From contig NZ_JXQM01000016.1 of the NCBI RefSeq assembly GCF_000832065.1, positions 1 through 64,000 on the forward strand: a stretch of DNA of 64,000 bases. Direction: 5' to 3'. Below are positions 4,801 to 21,869 of this stretch, one piece after another. The notes below the pieces were generated by a model, which did no database searches, had not been told where the DNA came from, and was given only the letters and a program-made list of their open reading frames with translations. The translations under genes and the position numbers were made by a program. Numbering within the stretch: the stretch's first letter is position 1; every line of letters starts with the position of its first letter. This stretch comes from Nitrosospira sp. NpAV (GTDB lineage: Bacteria; Pseudomonadota; Gammaproteobacteria; Burkholderiales; Nitrosomonadaceae).

Positions 4801-7276
4801 ACTCGACCCCCTTTTTGACAAGCCAGTGAATAGGCCAATCCACTCCATTCTCTTCCTCATGCGCCTTCACTTCCCGCAGCGTATCCTTGTCGGACACCGC
4901 CACAAAGCTGAGTGCCAGCGGCCCCAATCCCAACTGAAACATGCGGCGGCCAAGCGGGGACTTGTAGTAATAATCCCGCTTGTACTGCCCATTGCTGAGC
5001 AACCGTATTTCATTGTCATTCAGTCCGAACATGCGATAGAGTTCCGCCGGTCCCGGATTCTCCTCGGTCCCTTGCAGATCGGCTTCCTTGTTCGGCAAGA
5101 GGATCTTGGTCGGGCATTGTTCCAGCAGCGTGTCGATCAACCCAGATCGGACGGCATCGGATAGGCTTTGTGTTGCGACGATCACGGCGCAATTCTTTTT
5201 GCGCAGCTCCTTCAGCCATTCCCGCATCTTCTCCCGGAAGACCTTGTGCCCCAGCATTACCCATGCTTCATCGAGCGACAAAATGGCCGGCTGGCCCGTA
5301 AGCGATTTCTCGAAACGCCGGAACAGGTAAAGCAGTACCGGTATCGCATTCTGCTCGCCGAGCATCATCAACTCATCGACCTCGAACACAACAAAACTGG
5401 ACAGATTCAGGGAATCCTCGCTCCCGTCGAGCAAATGGCCCATCCCACCTTCAAGCGTGTAATGCTTCAAGGCATCCCGAATCGCCGTGTCCTGCACCGT
5501 GGTAATAAAATGCGTCAGGGAGCGGAAGCCCCTGGGCGCATCCCTCAAGAGCGTAATGGCGCGATGTACCTCATTTTTTTGGTGAGGCGTAAGCGGTTCT
5601 CCCGCTTGCAGTTCGTAACAAGTGCCAATCCACTCTTCAGCCCACAACGCGTCGGACACCGCATCTATTTCCGCTAGCGGACACAATGCCAAGTCCTTGC
5701 CGTCATCGGACCCGATATCGTAGTGCTGTCCGCCTATGGCCTTGCAAAGCGCATACAGGGAGCGGCCCTTGTCGAACGCCGTCACCGTGGCGGGCAACGT
5801 AGTGCCGTCTGGCCGCGCACGGCTGCGATAGCGGCGGAATTGCGCAAGGATCACGGCTATCAGCGTGGATTTCCCCGCGCCCGTAGGTCCGAAAATCAAC
5901 GTATGCCCCACATCACCAACATGCAAATTGAACCGGAACGGGGTTGCTCCGGTTGTTACCGTGTGCATCAAAGGCGGGGAACCCGCAGGGTAAAACTCGC
6001 AAGGGTTTTCCCGCAGTCCCGGCCAAATCCCCGCCAACGGCAGAAGGTCGGCCAGGTTCAGCGTATGGATCAACGGGCGGCGAACGTTCGGGTAGGCGTG
6101 GCCTGGGAGTGTGCCTAGCCATGCCTCAAGCGTATTCACCGTTTCGATCCGCGCATTGAAGCCGCGGCCAATAATTACCTTGCGCACATACCGCGCCTGC
6201 TCTTCAAGCAGTTGCCGATCCTCACTCATGAGTACGACAACAGGTGTGTAGTACCCATACGACACCACACCAGATCGCGCGTCCGCCATCGCATGCTCGA
6301 CTTCCTGCGTCATTGCCAGCGCATCGGTATCTATTACGCCCCTGTTGGACTTGACCAATTGGGACCAGAGCCCGCGCACCTTTTGCTGCCAAACCCGATG
6401 GAATCCCTTCAATGCCGCAATGGCCTCGTGCTGTTCCAGGAATATAAAGCGCGACGACCAACGGTAAGCGACCGGCAAGCCTTCAAACAATGACAGAATT
6501 CCGGGAGACGACGACGAAGGGAAGCCATCGATTGCAACGCATGAAATGTATTGCTCGCCCAGTTTGGGCGTATCGCCGGGCCAAAGCCGCGGATAGCCCA
6601 GCCATGAGTCAAGATACATGGGACAGGAGGGAATCCGAAGCGCCATTGTCTCACCGGTAAGGGCGAAGTGCAGGTAGTTGACAAGCTCATCGCTCTCGTA
6701 AGAATCATCATCGGTTCCCGCCGTGATTGACCTCATACGGCGCATATGCAGCAGATCCCCTACCCCATCCTGAAAATCCGCCAACTTTTTCTTGAAGTCG
6801 GCAAGGATCTGGTCACCCGGAGCGATGTTCTTTCGGCCATCATCATCGTAGAGTATGTCCAGCAGCTTTGATTCCCGTTGAAGCGGCGGCAGGAATTGCA
6901 GCACAAACGCATACTCGGTTTCATAGTGCGTATCATCGCGCTTGAACAGTTCCCGCCTTTCCGCGTCGATCATCGCCGAAATGGGATCAGGAAAATGGGA
7001 CTCGGACGGCGCCGGATAACCGGGAGAAGGCAACCGTGCCGCATCTATCCACGCGGCCCAGCCAGAATCCAGTTGCGTAAGGTATCTGTTTACCTGTGCC
7101 GTCACATAGTTACGCTCGGCATCGGTAGCGCTGCCGGCGTCATCGCCTCTGAAGAAAAACCCTGCCAGCAGCGCCCCATCCTTGCCCAGCACAATGCCTT
7201 CATCAATCAGGGCGGCATAGTTGAGCAGATCGGGAAGGCCCGCGGCTTTCGACCGGAAAGGGGCAAGTGCTAACAT
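4781..7276 (-). CDS. trbE: TrbE/VirB4-family conjugation ATPase
   Basis: 831 residues, a normal full length for TrbE. The N-terminal CagE/TrbE/VirB4 domain (about 1-420) precedes the AAA-like motor. Walker A is GPTGAGKST at about 463-471, and Walker B is the ILSLDEAWVML segment near residue 660. The motifs VIVATQSLSDA and KILLPNKEAD further downstream are characteristic of VirB4 ATPases. The enzyme energises pilus biogenesis and substrate transfer at the inner membrane. The ATG follows the trbD stop with no gap, and the 3' end overlaps trbJ. Confidence 0.96.
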   Translation of the reverse strand: MLALAPFRSKAAGLPDLLNYAALIDEGIVLGKDGALLAGFFFRGDDAGSATDAERNYVTAQVNRYLTQLDSGWAAWIDAARLPSPGYPAPSESHFPDPISAMIDAERRELFKRDDTHYETEYAFVLQFLPPLQRESKLLDILYDDDGRKNIAPGDQILADFKKKLADFQDGVGDLLHMRRMRSITAGTDDDSYESDELVNYLHFALTGETMALRIPSCPMYLDSWLGYPRLWPGDTPKLGEQYISCVAIDGFPSSSSPGILSLFEGLPVAYRWSSRFIFLEQHEAIAALKGFHRVWQQKVRGLWSQLVKSNRGVIDTDALAMTQEVEHAMADARSGVVSYGYYTPVVVLMSEDRQLLEEQARYVRKVIIGRGFNARIETVNTLEAWLGTLPGHAYPNVRRPLIHTLNLADLLPLAGIWPGLRENPCEFYPAGSPPLMHTVTTGATPFRFNLHVGDVGHTLIFGPTGAGKSTLIAVILAQFRRYRSRARPDGTTLPATVTAFDKGRSLYALCKAIGGQHYDIGSDDGKDLALCPLAEIDAVSDALWAEEWIGTCYELQAGEPLTPHQKNEVHRAITLLRDAPRGFRSLTHFITTVQDTAIRDALKHYTLEGGMGHLLDGSEDSLNLSSFVVFEVDELMMLGEQNAIPVLLYLFRRFEKSLTGQPAILSLDEAWVMLGHKVFREKMREWLKELRKKNCAVIVATQSLSDAVRSGLIDTLLEQCPTKILLPNKEADLQGTEENPGPAELYRMFGLNDNEIRLLSNGQYKRDYYYKSPLGRRMFQLGLGPLALSFVAVSDKDTLREVKAHEEENGVDWPIHWLVKKGVEYAKYVK

Positions 7277-13216: not shown

Positions 13217-13343
13217 TAAGGTTTTAGATTGTATTAATAACATTAATAACAGATAGTTAAAGATTTTGCTGATTTGGTCGTACACCTTTTTTAAAAGCTG
13301 TTTTTATAAACTTTGGATTCCGTTTTGCAATTCCGCTCACATA

Positions 13344-13930
13344 CTGTCAGCGGGTCGGGCTCTATGTGCTGCGCACCCGGGGCCTGTAGTCCCGGCTATC
13401 CGGTAACGATCCCTTTTGTAAATTCCTAATTAGCGGCTTCGTCAATTCAGACCAGGCCGATCCGGAGGATGTTTTCGCATAAGAGAAAACTGATCAATGA
13501 TCAGCTCCGCCCCCCAAGCAAGACGGATATTCACGAGCGTGAATATCCGTCTTGCTTGCTTATCGCTGTCACAAGCCACGCCAGCCGCTGGTGCGGTACG
13601 CTTTGCCTGTCATGCCTTGTGATCCGCAAGTTCTTGCGGCCGCAACGCGCTTGAACCCTAACCGCTAACGGCACAAGCCGACGTTAACCCCGCACGAATC
13701 CCCCACAAAGCGCCTCCCAATCCTCTGCGAGGGGGGGCTTGTGGGGGGATAAACGTTTCATGCGGGGCCGGATCATCGGCTTTGCATTTGCCTACTTTCC
13801 AACCCCACCCATTCCCAACCCTTGCCCGTGAGGGCAAGGGCTATCCCCACTCCCGTCGCCCCAGGGCGAGGCGAAGAGGTTCGAGCGAAAGGATGTTTTT
13901 CTTAACCCTAAATCGCGAGGAATCCAGATC
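13344..13930 (+). repeat. Structured leader repeat, copy 1 (before ardC)
   Basis: 587 bp with no supported gene, matching copy 2 (16005-16631) almost end to end and copy 3 (19151-19571) over most of its 3' part. Successive hairpins: GTTTTC/GAAAAC (13471-13490); a perfect 42-nt palindrome (13516-13557); CCGCAAG-TT-CTTGCGG (about 13624-13639); a long CCCCCACAA...TTGTGGGGG stem (about 13700-13747); CCCTTGCCC-GTGA-GGGCAAGGG (13819-13840); and TCGCCC-CA-GGGCGA (about 13856-13869). It ends in GCGAGGA, the ribosome site of ardC. Proposed role: folded single-strand promoter or leader RNA. Confidence 0.85.
13516..13557. repeat. Perfect 42-nt hairpin palindrome
   Basis: Left arm AAGCAAGACGGATATTCAC (13516-13534), loop GAGC, right arm 13539-13557 is its exact reverse complement; the flanking C/G pair extends the stem to 20 bp. 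Copy 2 carries an imperfect version with compensating changes (GATATTCGC / GCGAATATC), suggesting the structure rather than the sequence is kept. Confidence 0.95.
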
Positions 13931-14827
13931 ATGAAAACCCCCACCAATTTGAAGAAAGATATGTACGTACAAATCACGGATGCAATTATTGCCATGCTGG
14001 AAAGTGGAAAGACAAGCCGCCTAACTTGGGCAAGAACCGGCAACAACTTGCCCTGCAACCACAAGACCGGTGCAGCCTATCAAGGCGTGAATGTGCTGTT
14101 ATTGTGGGCAGCGGCTATGACTCACGGCTACTCATCCGATCGCTGGCTGACCTACAAACAAGCCGCGGACATGGGCGGCCGGATTCGTAAAGGCGAAAAG
14201 AGCGTGACATGCGTTTTTTTCAAGACGATTGAACGCGAATTGACGGGTGATGGCGACAGCGCCAAAGAGAGCGAATCGGTGCGGGTGATGAGTTCTTTCT
14301 GGCTGTTCAATCTTGATCAGATAGACGGTATTGATAAGCCGCAAACCGCCGCGCAGCGCAGCGAGTTCCAGCAGATCGATGCAGCCGAAGCCGTTTTAAT
14401 TCATTCTCGCGCAGTGATCTGCGAAGAAGGCGAAAAGGCGTTTTACCGTCCGTCAACCGATGAAATTTATCTGCCGCAGCGCGCCCGATTCGCATCGATG
14501 ATCGAATTCTACAGTGTGGCCCAGCATGAGCTGACGCACTGGACGGGAGCCAAGCATCGTTTAGCGCGTGACTTTGCCGATCGCTTCGGTACCGAAGCCT
14601 ATGCTTTCGAGGAATTGATTGCTGAGCTGGGCAGCGCTTTCCTGAATGCGGAACTGGGTTTTTCCGCGACGACAATTCCGAACCATGCCGGCTATATCGA
14701 CTCATGGCTGAAGGTGCTAAAGAACGACAAGCGCGCCATTTTCACGGCGGCCAGCCAGGCCAGTAAGGCACATCGCTACATCGTGGACTTGGTAGAAGGC
14801 AACCAAAACAAACAACACGCCGCCTGA
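13931..14827 (+). CDS. ardC: ArdC-type antirestriction protein
   Basis: 298 residues. The N-terminal ArdC domain (about 5-130; ssDNA-binding, with LTWARTGNNLPCNHKTGAAYQGVNVLLLW and RWLTYKQAADMGGRIRKGEKS) is joined to a zincin-like metallopeptidase domain with QHELTHWTG (HExxH at 199-203) and the downstream EELIAELG (227-234). In pSA-type ArdC the N-domain binds single-stranded DNA and the protein protects incoming plasmid DNA from type I restriction. The gene sits behind a hairpin-rich leader shared with the radC-like and plasmid-related genes. GCGAGGA lies just before the ATG. Confidence 0.93.
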   Translation: MKTPTNLKKDMYVQITDAIIAMLESGKTSRLTWARTGNNLPCNHKTGAAYQGVNVLLLWAAAMTHGYSSDRWLTYKQAADMGGRIRKGEKSVTCVFFKTIERELTGDGDSAKESESVRVMSSFWLFNLDQIDGIDKPQTAAQRSEFQQIDAAEAVLIHSRAVICEEGEKAFYRPSTDEIYLPQRARFASMIEFYSVAQHELTHWTGAKHRLARDFADRFGTEAYAFEELIAELGSAFLNAELGFSATTIPNHAGYIDSWLKVLKNDKRAIFTAASQASKAHRYIVDLVEGNQNKQHAA

Positions 14828-14860
14828 GCCGGCGAAGCGATCTACAACAAGGAAAATATT

Positions 14861-14920
14861 AGCGGCCTGGTCTGAACTGACGAGGCCGCTTTCGCGGCGT
14901 GTTTTCGCATACGCGAAAAC
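14861..14920. repeat. Inverted copy of a leader segment and hairpin after ardC
   Basis: 14864-14890 is the reverse complement of 13432-13458 in leader 1 with only two mismatches, so ardC is bracketed by inverted copies. It also folds on itself (AGCGGCCT 14861-14868 / AGGCCGCT 14883-14890). GTTTTCGC-ATAC-GCGAAAAC (14901-14920) is a perfect stem related to the hairpins in the three leaders. It may terminate ardC. The sequence from 14921 to 15185 holds nothing I recognise. Confidence 0.8.
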
Positions 14921-15185
14921 ATATTAGAGGTGAAGACACGATTCGCGCTTTAAAGCACGCTCGGGCCCGTATTCGGAGGGATTAGCCGCAGTTAGCCTGA
15001 TTTTACCTGTTCGAGGAGTTGGGTAAAAATAACCAATTTTACATTTTTGGCGGGGCAGGCAATATCAGCCAAGCAGTCATGTCACCAGCCGCCATTTTGA
15101 TCACAGCAACGTCAGTTTTCGGAAGTAACGCGCGACCTTCATTGTCCCCTGACACGTTCTAGCCGGGCACCGCCGCCCTTAATAC

Positions 15186-15241
15186 TTGACAAACGCAAAT
15201 TATTTGATAAAATAGCATAACGTAAAAAGTAATTACGTTAT
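15186..15241 (+). promoter_or_regulatory. kfrA promoter and operator palindrome
   Basis: TTGACA (15186-15191) and TAAAAT (15208-15213) are 16 bp apart, a near-consensus sigma-70 promoter. Directly after the -10 is the inverted repeat ATAACGTAA (15217-15225) / TTACGTTAT (15233-15241) with a 7-bp spacer. Its position over the start of transcription fits an operator; KfrA of IncP plasmids is known to repress its own gene. Confidence 0.8.
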
Positions 15242-15260
15242 TAAATATGAAGGAGCCACC

Positions 15261-15941
15261 ATGGGACGTAAAGCACTCCACACGCAAGATCAGGTTTTTG
15301 AAGCCGCTGACCGGCTGGCGGTAAGCGGCCGGGAAGTCACGCCGACCACCTTGCGCGATGCGCTGGGCGGGGGCAGCCTGACCACTATTTACCGCCATCT
15401 TGAAGCTTGGGAAGCCACCCGCAAGGCGGTGCCGGTCCCAGTCAGCATTCCCATGCCGGATGCCGTAAGACTGGCCTTTGAGCAGGCCTGGCAAGCGGCG
15501 GCCACCGAGGCCGGCAAAGAAATCGCGGCCATCCGCGAAAAAGCGGATAGCGAAATCAAGGCCACGCACCGGCGCCTGGAAGAAGCGGTGGCGGCGATCG
15601 GTCAACTCGAAAGTGAGCAGCTGGCCGACGCCGACCGGCTGGAGGGACTGGAAACCACGCTGCTCAAGGAACGTGAAATCGCGCGTCAGACCGTGATTGA
15701 TGCCGCCGCCCGGGAAGCCGGGCTTGCGGCCACGGTGGCCGAGCTCAAACATCACAGCGGCGAGGTGGTCAATAAGCTGACGCTCAGCAAACAAGCCATC
15801 GAGGCCGAGTTGTCCGAGATACGCAAGGACGTGCGGGGGTTGACTGAAAAGCTGGGCAAGGCCACCGGAGCCGCCGACGCGTTGCGTAGCCAGGTTGCCG
15901 AGCAGCAAGCGACGATCCGCGACTTATCCGGGCGGCGATAG
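15261..15941 (+). CDS. kfrA: KfrA-like plasmid DNA-binding coiled-coil protein
   Basis: 226 residues. The N-terminal KfrA DNA-binding domain (about 1-60: VFEAADRLAVSGREVTPTTLRDALGGGSLTTIYRHLEAW) is followed by a long alanine/glutamate-rich coiled coil (about 75-220). KfrA of IncP plasmids is an autorepressor that helps stable inheritance by forming fibre-like complexes with partition proteins. The ATG is preceded by AAGGAG and by its own promoter with an operator. The large antisense open frame over it is a shadow caused by alanine-rich codons. Confidence 0.88.
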   Translation: MGRKALHTQDQVFEAADRLAVSGREVTPTTLRDALGGGSLTTIYRHLEAWEATRKAVPVPVSIPMPDAVRLAFEQAWQAAATEAGKEIAAIREKADSEIKATHRRLEEAVAAIGQLESEQLADADRLEGLETTLLKEREIARQTVIDAAAREAGLAATVAELKHHSGEVVNKLTLSKQAIEAELSEIRKDVRGLTEKLGKATGAADALRSQVAEQQATIRDLSGRR

Positions 15942-16004
15942 CCTGGCGGCGGGTGAAAAGGCTAATGCCTGAAAGGGTCCTTTCATTGCCAGCCCGCCCG
16001 CCTC

Positions 16005-16631
16005 CTGTCAGCGGGCCGGGATCAGGCGCGCTAGCGCCCCGGGCCTGAAGTCCCGGCCATGCGGTTAGGATCCCTTTTGCAACGACTATTAACAGCCTCG
16101 CCCGTTCCGGGCCACTCTGTTAACTTACCCCAACTAGCGGCCTCGTCAATCAGACCAGGCCGATCCGGAGCATGTTTTCGCAAATGCGAAAACAGATCAA
16201 TGAACAGATCCACCCCCAGGGCAAGATAGATATTCGCGGGTGCGAATATCTTGTTTCTCTCGTTTATCGCTGTCACAGGCCACGCCAGCCGCTGGCGCGG
16301 TCCGCTTTGCCTGTCATGCCCTGTGATCCGCAAGTTCTTGCGGCCGCAACGCACTTGAATCCGAGTCCCTGACGGCACAAGCCGAGGCTCACCCCGCAAG
16401 AATCCCCCCAGCAAGCGCCCCATCCCTTTGTGAGGGGGACTTGTGGGGGGATAAACATTCATGCGGGGCCGGAACATCGGCTTTGCATTTGCCTATTTTC
16501 CAACCCCACCCATTCCCAACCCCTGCCCGTGAGGGCAAGGGCTATCCCCCACTCCCGTCGCCCCAGGGCGAGGCGAAGAGGTTCGAGCGAAAGGATGTTT
16601 TTATTAACCCTGAATCGCGAGGACTCCGGAC
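16005..16631 (+). repeat. Structured leader repeat, copy 2 (before radC-like gene)
   Basis: 627 bp closely matching copy 1, with a 40-bp extra stretch near 16080-16130. Hairpins include GTTTTCGC-AAAT-GCGAAAAC (16174-16193, perfect), the GATATTCGC/GCGAATATC stem (about 16228-16251), CCGCAAG-TT-CTTGCGG (about 16328-16343), a CCCCCC...GGGGGG stem (about 16405-16448), the CCCTGCCC-GTGA-GGGCAAGGG stem (16520-16541) and TCGCCC-CA-GGGCGA. It ends in GCGAGGA before the radC-like ATG. Short open frames in it have no family resemblance. Confidence 0.85.
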
Positions 16632-17132
16632 ATGAATACCGCTACCCCCGACCTTTTTACGCTTGGCGACAATGTGGCGCCCTACGCATTGAACAACGAT
16701 TACGACGTTATCGCGCATGCGCTCGCGATTATTGAGGGCAAGCTACGCAAGCCCGGCGAGGGATTGAATTCGCCAACGCTGGTAAAGAACCTGTTTACTT
16801 TGCGGCTTGCTCAAAAAGAGCATGAGGTTTTCGAGGTGGTGTTTCTCGACACGCAAAACCGCATGATAGCGGTTGAGTCGATGTTTACCGGTACCCTGTC
16901 GCAAACCAGCGTATACCCGCGCGAAGTATTGAAGCGGGCCCTCCACCACAACGCGGCCGCACTTATCTTCGCCCACAATCACCCTTCCGGCCTGGCAGAG
17001 CCGAGCCGGGCGGATGAGCTTTTGACCAAAAGCCTTACTGATGTGCTTGGACTGGTGGACATTAGGGTACTCGACCATATTGTGGTCGCCGGAATGCGGA
17101 CGGTATCGTTTGCCGAGACGGGGCGGTTATGA
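16632..17132 (+). CDS. RadC-like JAB-domain protein
   Basis: 166 residues. The JAB/MPN+ metal site is complete: [14 protein letters not shown] (115-128) with an upstream Glu in [16 protein letters not shown]. RadC-family proteins on plasmids and ICEs lack the HhH part, as here. They are regularly found with ardC and parB-like genes; their biochemical role is unproven (not a confirmed DNA-repair enzyme). The gene follows structured leader copy 2 and overlaps the methyltransferase-like gene by ATGA, so both should be made together. Confidence 0.9.
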
Positions 17133-17932
17133 GTTCCGGATTGGATCGCCACCAGCAAGAGTTTGCCAAGCTGGTCGATGAGAATAGCCGCAGCCGCCAT
17201 CCCTACACGGTTTTCAAGGATTTCTGCGAACTGGCGGCGCTGTCGTTTAGCAATGCGGTTGACCGGGCACAGTATGAAGCGCGGGAAGCGCGGTACTTGC
17301 AGATCGTCAAAGGCTACAAGGTTGATGAAGTTGCCCGCTTCCCCAAAATGCTGGCCTGCCTCACGTTATCGCTGGAAGAGAACATGAATGATTGCCTGGG
17401 CCAGCTATTCATGGCGCTTGAGCTGGGCAACAGCAGGGCAGGGCAGTTTTTCACGCCGTATCACGTATCGCTGTTGATGGCGAAAATGTTGTCCGGTGAT
17501 GCTGGCCAGCTATGCAAGGCGCGCGGATTTGTACGCGTGATGGAACCGGCAGCCGGGGCAGGGGGGATGGTGATCGCCACCGCGCAGGCGCTCCGTGATG
17601 AAGGCATCAATTATCAGCAGGCGATGCACGCAACCTGCATCGATATCGATGCCACCGCCGTGCATATGGCCTATGTGCAATTAACGTTGCTGCACATCCC
17701 GGCAATCGTTGTGCATGGCAACGCCTTGTCGCTGGAGCAATGGGGATACTGGTTGACCCCCGCGCATGTGCTGGGGTTCTGGGATGCGAAGCTCAAGCGG
17801 GCTGCGAGCGCCAGGCAGGAGCGGGAAGAAAACGCCGGTCATGCCGCGCCGGCCATGCCGGATGGGATTATGCAACAGATACGCGAGGTTGCGGCGGACC
17901 CGACAGGCACGGGGCAATTGATGTTGTTTTAA
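17129..17932 (+). CDS. N6-adenine methyltransferase-like protein lacking the catalytic NPPY motif
   Basis: 267 residues of the HsdM-like family: [16 protein letters not shown] (105-120) and the SAM-binding motif [13 protein letters not shown] (138-150), then [31 protein letters not shown]. Where active enzymes have NPPF/Y the protein reads [16 protein letters not shown], so the catalytic motif IV is absent. The protein is shorter than HsdM and has no specificity partner nearby. Plasmid members of this family commonly show TPAHVLG here. It may bind SAM or DNA without methylating, or act as an antirestriction decoy; that is inference. It is coupled to the radC-like gene. Confidence 0.8.
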
Positions 17933-18004
17933 GGTGCCGGGTGCAGGGCGAGGGCAGGGACGTCGAGTCCCCGCCGATTAATCAACCAGAAAAGGAGGCG
18001 CATC

Positions 18005-18181
18005 ATGCTAGACCCCAGGATAACCGAGTATAGCTACCTCACCCATACCCTGGGCACCCTCGGCGGAACGAAGGAGCAGTGGGAACGGTGGAACTGGCTG
18101 TACAAAGAGGTAGTCAGTCCCTTGCTGGAGAAGTCGACCCGGAATCAAGCACTAACTACAAGAAAACGCGGCAAAAAATAG
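18005..18181 (+). CDS. Small uncharacterised protein (58 aa)
   Basis: Starts ATG CTA GAC with AAAGGAGG in ideal position. The product begins MLDPRITEYSYLTHTLGTLG and is Trp-rich (KEQWERWNWLYKEVV) with a basic tail (TRKRGKK). No family recognised. It lies between the methyltransferase-like gene and a decayed copy of that gene's 3' end. The strong ribosome site argues that it is real. Confidence 0.55.
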   Translation: MLDPRITEYSYLTHTLGTLGGTKEQWERWNWLYKEVVSPLLEKSTRNQALTTRKRGKK

Positions 18182-18228
18182 TTATCTGGCCTATTGGCAT
18201 AATGGAGGTGAAGATGCTGCCTGCGATG

Positions 18229-18410
18229 CTGACGGGTTGACTCCCGCGCATGGGCCGGGTTTCTGGAATGCGAAGCTCAAGCGGGGCAGGGTGGAGGAGG
18301 CGAACACGGTCGACGATCATCTTGTCCCGGCCATGCCGGATGAGGTGATGCAACCGATGCGCGAGGTTGCGGCGGTACAGAAGCGTACCGGGCAGTTGAC
18401 GTTGTTTTGA
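18229..18410 (+). pseudogene. Decayed copy of the 3' end of the methyltransferase-like gene
   Basis: Aligns at DNA and protein level with 17743-17932: TTGACTCCCGCGCATG, TTCTGGAATGCGAAGCTCAA, CCGGCCATGCCGGATG and CGCGAGGTTGCGGCGG all have partners there, ending in GGGCAGTTGACGTTGTTTTGA. A stop codon falls early, and the first three quarters of the gene are missing. It is a remnant of a tandem duplication or of recombination with a related plasmid. Confidence 0.85.
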
Positions 18411-18459
18411 GGATGCCTCTCAGGTCGAGAGCGTGATCAGGCCAGGTCTTGCGGGATTG

Positions 18460-18882
18460 TTACAACCCGGTCGCGGACTTACGCAGCTGCGTGCTGGCTG
18501 CGTGATTTTGATTGAGCCTGGCAGCCATTTGCCGGTGCAGGGTGGCTACTTGGGTGCTTGCTTCCGCGCTTTTCTCGTAATCACGGATCAGCGCCGAGGT
18601 GTGCGATTGGAGATCCTGAGCTTGCCGGCCATAGAGATAGCTCTTGTTTTCATATTGCTCCAGCAGCTCTTTTTGCTCCGTCACCTTTGCCTGCATCTGC
18701 GTGGCGGAATTCTCATAGTATTTTGCAATGGACTCATGGTCGCCGCGAGTGGCGGCATTCTGAGCGGCAGCGCGAATTTCCGGGGTGTCGATAGGCTGGG
18801 CTGCCACGACCGATGAGCTTGTCGAGACCAGGACACCCATCATGGACAACGCTGCAAGGGCATTTCCAAATTTTGTTTTCAT
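18460..18882 (-). CDS. Exported helical protein, paralogue of the lipoprotein at 57727
   Basis: 140 residues. Signal peptide about 1-28 (ALAALSMMGVLVSTSSSVVAA), then a helical, probably coiled-coil protein: HESIAKYYENSATQMQAKV, EQKELLEQYENKSYLYGRQAQDLQSH, ALIRDYEKSAEAS. The same pattern (AKRYEDAAKEM, YHSNLYAKQAQNLQAHCRGLIRYYEQAAEAN) occurs in the protein at 57727-58080, so these are clear paralogues. No enzymatic motif; the periplasmic function is unknown. It is transcribed against the surrounding plasmid genes and is probably an insertion from the metal/accessory pool. Confidence 0.8.
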   Translation of the reverse strand: MKTKFGNALAALSMMGVLVSTSSSVVAAQPIDTPEIRAAAQNAATRGDHESIAKYYENSATQMQAKVTEQKELLEQYENKSYLYGRQAQDLQSHTSALIRDYEKSAEASTQVATLHRQMAARLNQNHAASTQLRKSATGL

Positions 18883-19150
18883 GGCGGCAATCCAAATTGA
18901 GTGAAAGTGACTTCATCCTACTTGAGTGGATGCCCTGAGTATATTGGGGAAATCCTGATTCTTTACTAAGTGTTTCCCTTAGGATAAAACGCTTGATCAA
19001 CCAAGGACTTGGGGCTGGCTGTAGGGATCACGCTGCGCATGAATATCACGCCGGACCCGGAAATCACGATCTACGCTAACGCGCGTGATTACGGGGTGCA
19101 CAGGGACTTGGCGCCCCCGGCCAAGGCCGCGCCCGCGGTACGGCCAGGAA

Positions 19151-19571
19151 TATGCGGATTTTCGCGCCCGCGAAAATTTCCAGTGGCTTGCTCCCTGTCA
19201 CAGCCCCCGCCAGCCGCCTATGGCGGTACTCCTTGCCTGTCATGGGCGGTGAACCGGAATACTTTCAGCGATTCCGGCCGGAGGCAACTTAACACCTGCT
19301 ACCCCTGCTTCGGCACGCGCCCATTCCTGTTGCGCCATCCCCCCATCAATTCCCCCATTCGTCTGCGAGGGGGGCTTGTGGGGGGATAACCAAAACGCAA
19401 CAGGAACAGGCGCTAGCTGCTTTTCCGTTTCCACCCCACCCATTCCCAACCCTTGCCCGTGAGGGCAAGGGCACTCCCCCACTCCCGTCGCCCCAGGGCG
19501 AAGCGAAAAGGTTCGAGCGAGAGGATCTGGTTTTAAGACTCTCTTTTTCAACCTTACTTTGGAGGCCAGCT
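19151..19571 (+). repeat. Structured leader repeat, copy 3 (before plasmid-related gene)
   Basis: Shares with copies 1 and 2 the ATTTTCGC-GCCC-GCGAAAAT hairpin (19158-19177), the CTGTCACAG...CGCCAGCCGC...TGCCTGTCATG block, the CCCCC...GGGGGCTTGTGGGGGGATAA stem (about 19338-19388), the CCCTTGCCC-GTGA-GGGCAAGGG stem (19450-19471), TCGCCC-CA-GGGCGA and GGTTCGAGCGA. The middle (19250-19320) differs. It ends in TTGGAGG, the ribosome site of the next gene. Confidence 0.85.
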
Positions 19572-19877
19572 ATGGAACAAATGAAGCAACCGTTATTTTC
19601 ACTGGGGCAGGTGGTGGCAACCCCCGGCGTACTCGATAAGACCCATCCGGTGTGGATGGCAAATTGCCTTGCGCGGCATAGGCGAGGCGATTGGGGTTCG
19701 GTAGACGAGGAAGATATCGCAACCAACAATGAAGCGGTGCGCGTTGGGTTTCGTGTCTTATCAGCCTATCCGATTGACGCAACCAAGCCCTGTGAAGGCT
19801 ATGGCGACAATACATTGTGGATCATCACGGAAGCCGACCGCAGCGTGACCACCTTCCTTTTGCCCGACGAATACTAA
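19572..19877 (+). CDS. Plasmid-related small conserved protein
   Basis: 101 residues, soluble. The segments LARHRRGDWGSVDEEDIATNNEAVRVGFRVLSAY and LWIITEADRSVTTFLLPDEY are the signature of a small protein widespread on conjugative plasmids and ICEs beside radC, ardC and parB genes. Its activity is not known. It is preceded by the third structured leader and a strong GGAGG site, and followed 84 bp on by the parB-like gene, probably in one transcript. Confidence 0.8.
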   Translation: MEQMKQPLFSLGQVVATPGVLDKTHPVWMANCLARHRRGDWGSVDEEDIATNNEAVRVGFRVLSAYPIDATKPCEGYGDNTLWIITEADRSVTTFLLPDEY

Positions 19878-19961: not shown

Positions 19962-21869
19962 ATGGAAAACACAACCCCATCAACATTGATCCGCGTATCG
20001 ATTAGCAAACTGGTGCATTCACCCCTGAACGTGCGCAAGAAGCAAAGCACCGGCATTAGCGAGCTGGCCGCGCTGATCGCATCCCAAGGGCTGATTCATA
20101 ATCTCGTCGTCACGGAGCCGGTGAAAAAGAGCAAGAAAACCGGCAAATATGAAGTCGTGGCCGGAGGCCGTCGGCTCGCCGCCTTGAACCTTCTCGTAAC
20201 CGATGGCCGCTTGCCCAAGGATCATCCGGTCGAATGCCGCGTTGTCGGGCAGGAGGAAGCACTGGAACTGAGCCTGACGGAAAACTCCGGACGCGAAGCC
20301 ATGCACCCCGCCGATCTGGTCATGGCCTACCGCAATCTGACTGACGCGGGACTGTCGCCGGACGAGATTGCTCCGCGCTTTGGCGTCTCTCCCCTGACGG
20401 TCAAGCGTTACCTCAAACTCACCCATGTTTCCCCGGTCATCTTCAAGCTGTATGCCGAGGATGAAATGAATTTCGAGCAGATATCCGCGCTGGCGCTGAC
20501 CGAAGACCACGAATTGCAGGAGCGCATCTGGAACAGTACGCCCGAATGGCAGCGCAATGGTTCAACCTTCCGGCGATTGATAACCGGAACCGAGATAGAC
20601 ATTCAGCGCAGTCCGCTTGCCAAGTTTGTCGGGTTGGAGAAATACGAGGCCGCAGGAGGGTTGTTGCGCCGCGACTTGTTTGGGAAAGAGGACGAAGGCT
20701 ATATACAGGATGCAGAGCTGTTGGAATCGCTTGCGCTGGAAAAACTCAATCAGGCGGTTGAAGCCATCAAAGGCGAGGGTCATGCGTGGACGCAATGCCA
20801 TACCACGTTCGACCATGCGGACAGGGCAGAATTCGTAAGGGCGCGCACCATCAGGCGTGAACCGACCGCCGAGGAACAGGCCGCAATGGATACGCTGGAC
20901 GCCGAAATGGAAGCCATTGATGCCGAATTTGAGGGATACGACGAGGAAGCGGACGAGGACGGCGAAACCTATGCCGCGATTGAAAAGAAGCACGACGCCA
21001 TCCAGGGAAAGATAACGGCATTGAATGAATCGCTAGAAGAGCTGAATGCCGCCGACCTTGCCATTGCGGGTGTCATCGTTACGGTTGACCATGCGGGGGA
21101 GTTGCGCATCGAGCGGGGTTTGATCCGGAAAGAGGACGTGAAGAAACTGCCCAAGGCGCAGGGAGCGGAAACAGGGTTGGGAGGAAGTAGCCAGAGCGAA
21201 GCGACGAAGCCCGTGCATTCGGAAAAGCTCACGCGCATGTTGACGGCTCACCGTAGCGCGGCGATTCAGGCGCAGATCATGAACCGGCCGGAAATTGCGC
21301 TGGCGGCACTCGTGCACCGGCTGGCGTTGCAGGTTTTCTCGAACGGCTACGTGTCGAATCGCATCGTTCAGGTCAATATCGAGCAAACCTCTCTCAAGCA
21401 GGACGCGGAGAACATCGGACAAAGCCGCGCAGCCAAGGTAATCGAGGAAAAGCGGATGTATTGGACAGCGCGCATCGAGGCGGCAGGGCAGGGTGGCAAG
21501 ACGCTGTTCGGGTGGCTGTTGGAGCAAGACCTTGCAGACTTGCACGACCTGTTGGCGTTTTGCACGGCGGTCTCGATCAATACCGTATCGGGGCGGGAGC
21601 ATGCGCCATCGGATGACGTGGCGGTGATCATGGCCGCCTTGAATCTGGACATGGCCGACTGGTGGGAGCCTACCGCCGATACCTATTTGTCGCATGTAGG
21701 CAAGGATAGGATCATCGGCATGGTATCGGATGCGGTTTCGCCGCAGATAGCTCAGACCCTGACAAAGTTGAAGAAGGGTGAGCTGGTCAAGGCGGCTGAG
21801 GAACACTTGTCGGGGCTGCGCTGGCTGCCGGACAATCTCAAGGCGAAGGTATCGCTGGATCAGCAATAA
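19962..21869 (+). CDS. Large ParB/KorB-like DNA-binding protein
   Basis: 635 residues, about twice the size of chromosomal ParB. N-terminal ParB CTPase-type domain with YEVVAGGRRLAAL (about 63-75) and LTENSGREAMHPADLVMAY (about 105-123), then an HTH (LSPDEIAPRFGVSPLTVKRYLKL). The middle is acidic (EGYDEEADEDGE) and coiled; the C-terminal domain (about 440-620) is specific to this plasmid/ICE subfamily. Such proteins accompany radC and ardC in ICE and leading-region modules. They may act in DNA processing or gene control rather than segregation, because a separate small ParA/partner pair exists here. It ends at a strong hairpin. Confidence 0.88.
   Translation: MENTTPSTLIRVSISKLVHSPLNVRKKQSTGISELAALIASQGLIHNLVVTEPVKKSKKTGKYEVVAGGRRLAALNLLVTDGRLPKDHPVECRVVGQEEALELSLTENSGREAMHPADLVMAYRNLTDAGLSPDEIAPRFGVSPLTVKRYLKLTHVSPVIFKLYAEDEMNFEQISALALTEDHELQERIWNSTPEWQRNGSTFRRLITGTEIDIQRSPLAKFVGLEKYEAAGGLLRRDLFGKEDEGYIQDAELLESLALEKLNQAVEAIKGEGHAWTQCHTTFDHADRAEFVRARTIRREPTAEEQAAMDTLDAEMEAIDAEFEGYDEEADEDGETYAAIEKKHDAIQGKITALNESLEELNAADLAIAGVIVTVDHAGELRIERGLIRKEDVKKLPKAQGAETGLGGSSQSEATKPVHSEKLTRMLTAHRSAAIQAQIMNRPEIALAALVHRLALQVFSNGYVSNRIVQVNIEQTSLKQDAENIGQSRAAKVIEEKRMYWTARIEAAGQGGKTLFGWLLEQDLADLHDLLAFCTAVSINTVSGREHAPSDDVAVIMAALNLDMADWWEPTADTYLSHVGKDRIIGMVSDAVSPQIAQTLTKLKKGELVKAAEEHLSGLRWLPDNLKAKVSLDQQ

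Follow-up and report, generated by a model that had tools for sequence, protein, structure and literature searches.

Covarying hairpin leaders ahead of establishment genes on betaproteobacterial plasmids and mobile elements: candidate single-strand promoters

In a stretch of DNA from Nitrosospira sp. NpAV (bases 1-64000 of the 79,155-base contig NZ_JXQM01000016.1; hereafter the window), three related hairpin-rich leaders stand directly before ardC, before a radC-like gene, and before a gene for a 101-aa protein that is followed by a parB-like gene. That a conserved hairpin string of ~350 nt precedes establishment genes on plasmids and mobile elements of Betaproteobacteria is well supported, and it is likewise well supported that the leader is oriented to the transferred strand and is unlike an mRNA structure. 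We infer that its active form is a single DNA strand. Judged from sequence, the chances are about even that the leaders form a family of their own, made up of hairpin elements that fold on the transferred strand and serve establishment genes, most likely as single-strand promoters.

A repeat search found the three copies in register, which confirms the leaders that the initial annotation of this DNA had described:

13344..13930, + strand: leader copy 1, before ardC (5' extension 13344-13562, core 13563-13914, ribosome-binding region)
16005..16631, + strand: leader copy 2, before the radC-like gene and an N6-methyltransferase gene (5' extension 16005-16266, core 16267-16616)
19192..19571, + strand: leader copy 3, before the 101-aa gene and the parB-like gene (core only, 19194-19540)
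19154-19181: separate hairpin upstream of copy 3

Most of 13344-13933 (copy 1) can be aligned with most of 16005-16634 (copy 2), at 87% identity over the 3' ~510 bp and 80% over the initial ~78 bp; copy 3 aligns only at 19192-19526 (73%; the 3' core, ~345 bp). The description of all three as the same sequence of 420-630 bp is thus correct for copies 1 and 2 but not for copy 3, which consists of the core only. With copy 2 as query (11 of 11 candidates scored), the genome of NpAV itself yielded three places only, as four BLAST pieces, and therefore no leader stands before the trb, par or metal genes, as the initial annotation had stated. The core model stops 12-25 nt short of the start codons of ArdC (13931), RadC (16632) and the 101-aa protein (19572). 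At the leader 5' end lies a GC-rich element of ~78 nt (13344-13421 and 16005-16082 in the window), which on plasmid 2 of Nitrosospira multiformis occurs alone behind a restriction-modification pair (locus 6001-6076). Two parts of copy 2, its opening ~78 nt and bases ~117-200, are also found alone and look like separate repeats.

Stems, distribution and genes of the leader family

The structural features of the core are given here for copy 2:

16273..16326: stem H1 (helix 1), of the family type TCACAGRCCA / TGGYCTGTGA, with both sides changed in 3 of 10 pairs
16328..16343: stem H2 (helix 2), CCGCAAG / CTTGCGG, with both sides changed in 4 of 7 pairs
16392..16468: long hairpin M5, whose GGGGGRCTTGTGGGGGGAT arm is the genome-scan pattern; in relatives the outer stem consists of other complementary sequences
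16520..16541: stem H4 (helix 5), with a GTGA loop
16558..16571: stem H5 (helix 6), with a base pair that is T-A in 21 and C-G in 9 of 31 copies
16580..16596, + strand: conserved tail, GTYCGAGCGARAGGAT in most copies, immediately before the gene

Compensating changes were counted in 31 cores at 43 manually chosen pairs in six helices, where 43 double-change cells compare with 11.0 ± 2.6 after shuffling (none of 500 shuffles was as high). The manual helix set is 92.1% paired, a value that falls to 34-58% once the helices are slid, and the outer stem of M5 has at least six unbroken Watson-Crick pairs in 117 of 137 copies compared with 57.6 (maximum 65) when the partners are dealt anew. Copy 2 folds better than chance on both strands (z of -3.59 for the minus strand as DNA and of -3.40 for the plus strand as RNA), and for either strand the mean folding z lies in the range of -3.98 to -4.75 (16 of 32 cores, 12 shuffles each). 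The consecutive conserved hairpins which had been read from the letters are thereby confirmed, and so is a distinct sequence family with covarying stems.

Copy 2 is matched in 15 of 22 relatives of the same genus, the list of copies in these relatives being a lower bound (five first-look candidates scored per genome). For this first locus set, an iterated profile yielded 51 matches and 32 full cores of ~350 nt, one of them from another family of the order. The plasmids pNRS527-1 and pNRS527-2 of Nitrosospira sp. NRS527 both bear the leader, and of the 72,556 records of PLSDB four match copy 2 and three match a Methylibium leader. A pattern scan for an exact match to one M5 arm across 84,980 species genomes gave 109 genome stretches; among the 80 titles shown, 79 belong to Betaproteobacteria and one to a metagenome-assembled genome of Myxococcota, whose contig has the M5 pattern plus a core match and for which transfer and a binning error are both conceivable. 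Among viral contigs, three stretches contain the M5 pattern and one of them a core match. The core profile matches 110 of the 112 loci of this collection (109 of 109 genome stretches and one of three viral ones; 128 hits), and some Nitrosospira records occur both in the collection and in the first locus set. A covariance model of the 3' part, applied to 369 genomes of the class under strict filters with 11 candidates scored per genome, matched four, namely the own genome and three others with weak matches; the latter were read as low-complexity false matches and have no establishment gene beside them. In a literature search of limited extent no paper was recognised as describing this leader, which does not establish its absence from print.

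The genes behind the leader belong to few families. In the first set, 42 leaders extend to the gene side, and a reading of the translations assigned 31 of the following genes to ArdC (14), the 101-aa family (10), DUF932 (3), SSB (2), N6-methyltransferase (1) and RadC (1). For the collection, 100 leaders reaching the 3' end at 40 bits or more were counted; 94 are followed by an open reading frame (ORF) and six by none under the ORF rule applied. These 94 comprise an SSB-like BLAST cluster of 70, five ArdC, four Antirestrict (ArdB/KlcA type), four DUF932, four of the 101-aa family, two ParB-like and five single ORFs. Pfam, applied to representatives only, confirmed SSB, Antirestrict and DUF932, and the ParB-like representative had no Pfam match. 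The distance from leader to start codon is narrow, with 32-38 nt in 58 of 70 SSB and 10-15 nt in 11 of 14 ArdC cases. On annotated plasmids the leader stands before ArdC on pNRS527-1 and pNRS527-2, before one N6 methylase gene and one DUF932 gene in Eleftheria terrae, and before a small hypothetical gene in Diaphorobacter. In Methylibium sp. Root1272 the leader is followed, all on one strand and in this order, by ssb, DUF932, DUF7673, parA, parB, an RHH/NikA-like gene and a MobP1-like relaxase, which scores under the NCBIfam and over the Pfam cut-off. The tie to genes for incoming DNA, as initially proposed, therefore recurs across the family: the leader is found again and again before ssb, ardC, ardB-type, DUF932, methyltransferase, radC and parB-like genes, in many cases with a relaxase close by. 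Two further arrangements were seen in leader-bearing elements: on pNRS527-2 (locus 17489-19489) a leader is followed by ArdC, an LPD29 protein and ssb in a single run, and in the Methylibium element a helicase with partial sub-cut-off matches to DISARM DrmD follows the relaxase (locus 16217-19477).

Polarity, wobble pairs and promoter searches

All 40 leaders whose element offers a usable oriT or relaxase are oriented such that the transferred strand is the template, although these 40 cases are not independent because the elements are related. The oriT was located by traJ-II (RF01760), which we take to overlap the nic of IncP-type oriT, and with the nick polarity presumed from RP4 the transferred strand of the present plasmid is the minus strand, and this strand is the template for all leader genes. 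Eight of ten Nitrosospira contigs with a traJ-II match bear leaders, 15 in number and all on the traJ-II strand, as is an additional partial copy at a contig start; on two relaxase-only elements 3 of 3 leaders have the same polarity. For Burkholderiales, the Root1272 relaxase was searched in 24 hand-chosen genomes holding 31 exact-pattern leaders, the strands of the palindromic M5-pattern copies being taken from the ORF analysis of the collection. Twenty-two of the 31 have a relative of this relaxase within 20 kb, in all 22 cases on the same strand and 3.5-17.8 kb downstream; the relaxase gene enters the recipient last. These leader-bearing stretches are putative self-transferring elements. 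A MOBH relaxase as partner was rejected, TraI_2 being present in five of the 24 genomes and on no leader contig. Across the 40 leaders that can be judged, polarity is thus consistent with transcription off the transferred strand.

Selection on a + strand RNA would be expected to leave more GU pairs than AC mismatches, and an AC on the + strand equals a GT on the transferred strand. The wobble test was restricted to pairs predicted on both strands and used oriented RNase P (28 sequences) as control, which gave GU 58 and AC 5. The 31 Nitrosospira leaders (37 pairs, none in M5) gave the reverse, GU 11 and AC 34 (Fisher 1.9e-13 against RNase P, in cells that are not independent of each other), which argues against an mRNA leader; the manual helices gave GU 23 and AC 34. 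Counted per sequence, AC exceeds GU in 18 and GU exceeds AC in three Nitrosospira leaders, with ten ties. Overall, the wobbles lean to the transferred strand in Nitrosospira and are neutral in Burkholderiales. Two other counts were discarded: an uncalibrated arm-based one (AC 32, GU 11) and an automatic helix scan, in which AC exceeded GU in shuffled cores too and Burkholderiales were reversed (GU 68, AC 48).

Sigma-70 sites of at least 8/12 occur in 4 of 120 leader cores compared with 21.3 in shuffles, and 25 compared with 27.7 in the 250 bp above the cores, while the same scan applied to rnpB found 12 of 28 compared with 2.2 (100 bp) and 14 compared with 5.6 (270 bp). Since core and upstream scans show no sigma-70 excess while the sites of rnpB and kfrA are detected, the leader genes have no obvious ordinary promoter. 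At the gathering cut-off, Rfam gave no match in the window, while seven related loci yielded traJ-II alone and 18 further ones no more than a tRNA and ALIL; at E up to 1, bases 13300-19700 gave two chance microRNA matches only. The covariance models searched gave no match here to the radC RNA (RF01754) or STAXI, the presence of STAXI in the library being unconfirmed.

Mechanism, rival explanations and known systems

The plasmid or mobile element would enter the recipient in single-stranded form, in the present case as the minus strand, and on this strand the ~350-nt leader just ahead of an establishment gene would fold up as about five hairpins; the folded leader could then allow transcription of this gene before or during second-strand synthesis, as Frpo/ssi elements do, although without sigma-70 boxes. 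More tentatively, and with less than even confidence, the leaders may represent single-strand promoters of a second class that evolved independently and is found on betaproteobacterial IncP-like plasmids and relaxase-bearing islands, lacking sigma-70 boxes and with the hairpin architecture and a GTCCGAGCGAGAGGAT-type tail as signal. For the Frpo-like function that the initial annotation had proposed speak the family itself, its covariation, gene association, polarity and wobbles; entry timing on this plasmid and the absence of sigma-70 boxes speak against it.

A number of observations weigh against single-strand promoters. The leaders of the window lie ~53-59 kb past nic on a plasmid of 79 kb, behind a stretch with metal genes (distances obtained by subtraction of match coordinates), and because they enter so late the proposal that ardC and its partners are made as the strand arrives finds no support on this plasmid. 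Several further IncP-like Nitrosospira copies lie beyond the relaxase on the trailing side; two SSB leaders of the genus lie on the entering side, 3.9 and 6.3 kb from nic. Nine of the 31 Burkholderiales leaders have no relaxase within 20 kb (for five the genome has no match and for three the contig has none, while for one the match is ~84 kb away). PLSDB calls three of four plasmid records with copy 2 and three of three with the Methylibium leader non-mobilizable, although one of them, pNRS527-2, nonetheless has annotated mobC and relaxase genes. In the first set, 11 of 42 leaders have no clear establishment gene behind them (other, broken or no nearby ORF), and no -35/-10 boxes of the Frpo type were found in the leader stems; Frpo-like sigma-70 boxes are absent from the cores as well. 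In absolute folding energy the minus strand is better than the plus strand, but shuffle-controlled folding leans to the + strand (excess 1.24 ± 0.75 as DNA and 1.93 ± 1.57 as RNA; column-shuffled z of -13.9 for plus and -12.7 for minus), so that folding energy gives no preference for the minus strand once shuffle-controlled. The wobbles of Burkholderiales leaders (37 of 57 non-redundant copies) are near even with GU 52 and AC 63, or GU 49 and AC 61 without the pattern-fixed columns. Counted by pairs, the Nitrosospira excess is 20 AC to 10 GU (p 0.10), and column shuffles of these stems already predict AC 43.4 and GU 26.5, so the AC excess is partly a matter of base make-up.

Late entry of some copies would be less of a difficulty if the folded transferred strand served as an ssi/sso site that recruits primase or PriA/primosome for the start of the second strand, the genes benefiting only indirectly. 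Such a role, which we consider unlikely, would also accommodate the constant polarity of the hairpins to the transferred strand, wobbles unlike a + strand RNA, several copies per element and the lack of promoter boxes; the narrow spacing to the start codons of ArdC (10-15 nt) and SSB (32-38 nt) is, however, unneeded for priming. The near-even Burkholderiales wobbles, a folding energy without strand advantage and the repetition of the element before several genes of one element would suit a double-stranded region of the CUP kind, in which a promoter/operator is repeated under a plasmid regulator and the inverted repeats are protein sites or cruciforms. We hold this, too, to be improbable, though it and the priming site are the main rivals: no sigma-70 signal appears in core or upstream sequence though the scan detects rnpB promoters, and the stems stay paired as their sequence changes, unlike sequence-specific operators. 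An mRNA 5' leader, riboswitch-like or protein-bound and transcribed from an upstream promoter, would explain the position just ahead of the ribosome-binding site, the GTGA tetraloop of H4 and the good folding of the + strand. It is rendered quite improbable by GU pairs being rarer than AC, opposite to the RNA control and without GU excess in Burkholderiales, by the lack of an upstream sigma-70 signal and by the lack of a relevant Rfam match. Least credible, and very improbable in our judgement, is that the leaders are repetitive palindromes or hot spots of recombination whose spread has other causes; the 5' extensions found alone elsewhere and the 28-nt inverted repeats that bracket leader 1 and ardC would fit, but in many genomes the core keeps a constant orientation and its place before few gene families. 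Both alternatives which the initial annotation had named, RNA leaders and recombination hot spots, are thus disfavoured.

Among known systems, the single-strand promoters of F-like and related plasmids come closest: according to PMC11541004 they too have hairpins ahead of ssb and anti-defence genes, with a gene polarity that lets the incoming strand be the template, and searches for them have relied on resemblance to known Frpo and on -35/-10 boxes. The present leaders, ~350 nt long with about five hairpins, occur in Betaproteobacteria and have no sigma-70 -35/-10 boxes, and those of this plasmid lie outside the first-entering DNA; they are set apart from Frpo by boxes, size and hairpin number rather than by direct sequence comparison. 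The CUP of the IncN plasmid pKM101 is a repeated upstream element and an ordinary double-stranded promoter region under ArdK. It resembles the leaders in that one conserved element recurs ahead of several genes of the leading region, ard genes among them, and differs, compared by description and not by CUP sequence, in that the leaders have no ordinary promoter signal. The radC RNA precedes radC, methylase and antirestriction genes and, like STAXI, is a structured element near DNA-handling genes. In PMC2864571, STAXI is placed near ssb and antirestriction genes and is itself discussed as possible single-stranded DNA; it differs from the leaders in being, for the most part, a pseudoknot in repeated copies with UUCG loops. 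traJ-II is likewise a plasmid structure catalogued as RNA, covering IncP-type oriT; it is of other sequence and served here only as oriT marker.

A family of hairpins that occupies these gene positions with another sequence would point to more than one origin of expression from the incoming strand, and would escape searches based on known Frpo likeness or on -35/-10 boxes. In mobile elements that have received little study, the leader may also serve as a marker for establishment genes (e.g., DUF932 and the 101-aa family), and its covarying stems open the hairpin reading to direct testing.

The host contig and its gene cluster

The contig carries an IncP-like conjugation set, whose trb genes are on the minus strand. 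Probably the contig is a circle opened within the TrbI/trb region, because the trb genes lie at the contig start and a TrbI without its N-terminal half lies at the contig end (profile match beginning at position 210 of 433). TraM/L-like and TraJ/TraI/TraG genes surround oriT, which is matched by traJ-II at 72837-72937. The order of the cluster is rep, leader, ardC, kfrA, leader, radC, N6-methyltransferase, leader, 101-aa gene and parB-like gene, with the following features:

13931..14827, + strand: ArdC (ArdcN and MPTase-PolyVal domain matches)
15186..15213, + strand: sigma-70-like site (11/12) before kfrA, a leader-less gene of the cluster
16632..17132, + strand: RadC-like JAB protein
17129..17932, + strand: N6 DNA methylase
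19572..19877, + strand: 101-aa protein without Pfam or PHROG match, whose family recurs behind the leader in Nitrosospira
19962..21869, + strand: ParB-like protein, with ParB_N and HTH_ParB slightly under the Pfam cut-offs

By its sigma-70-like site the leader-less kfrA differs from its leader-bearing neighbours. Inverted repeats of 28 nt (13432-13459 and 14863-14890; 93% complementary) bracket most of leader 1 and ardC, as if the two could be mobile as a cassette. The 3' end of the N6-methyltransferase gene (17833-17934) is partly duplicated ~480 bp downstream (18311-18412; 77% over 102 bp).

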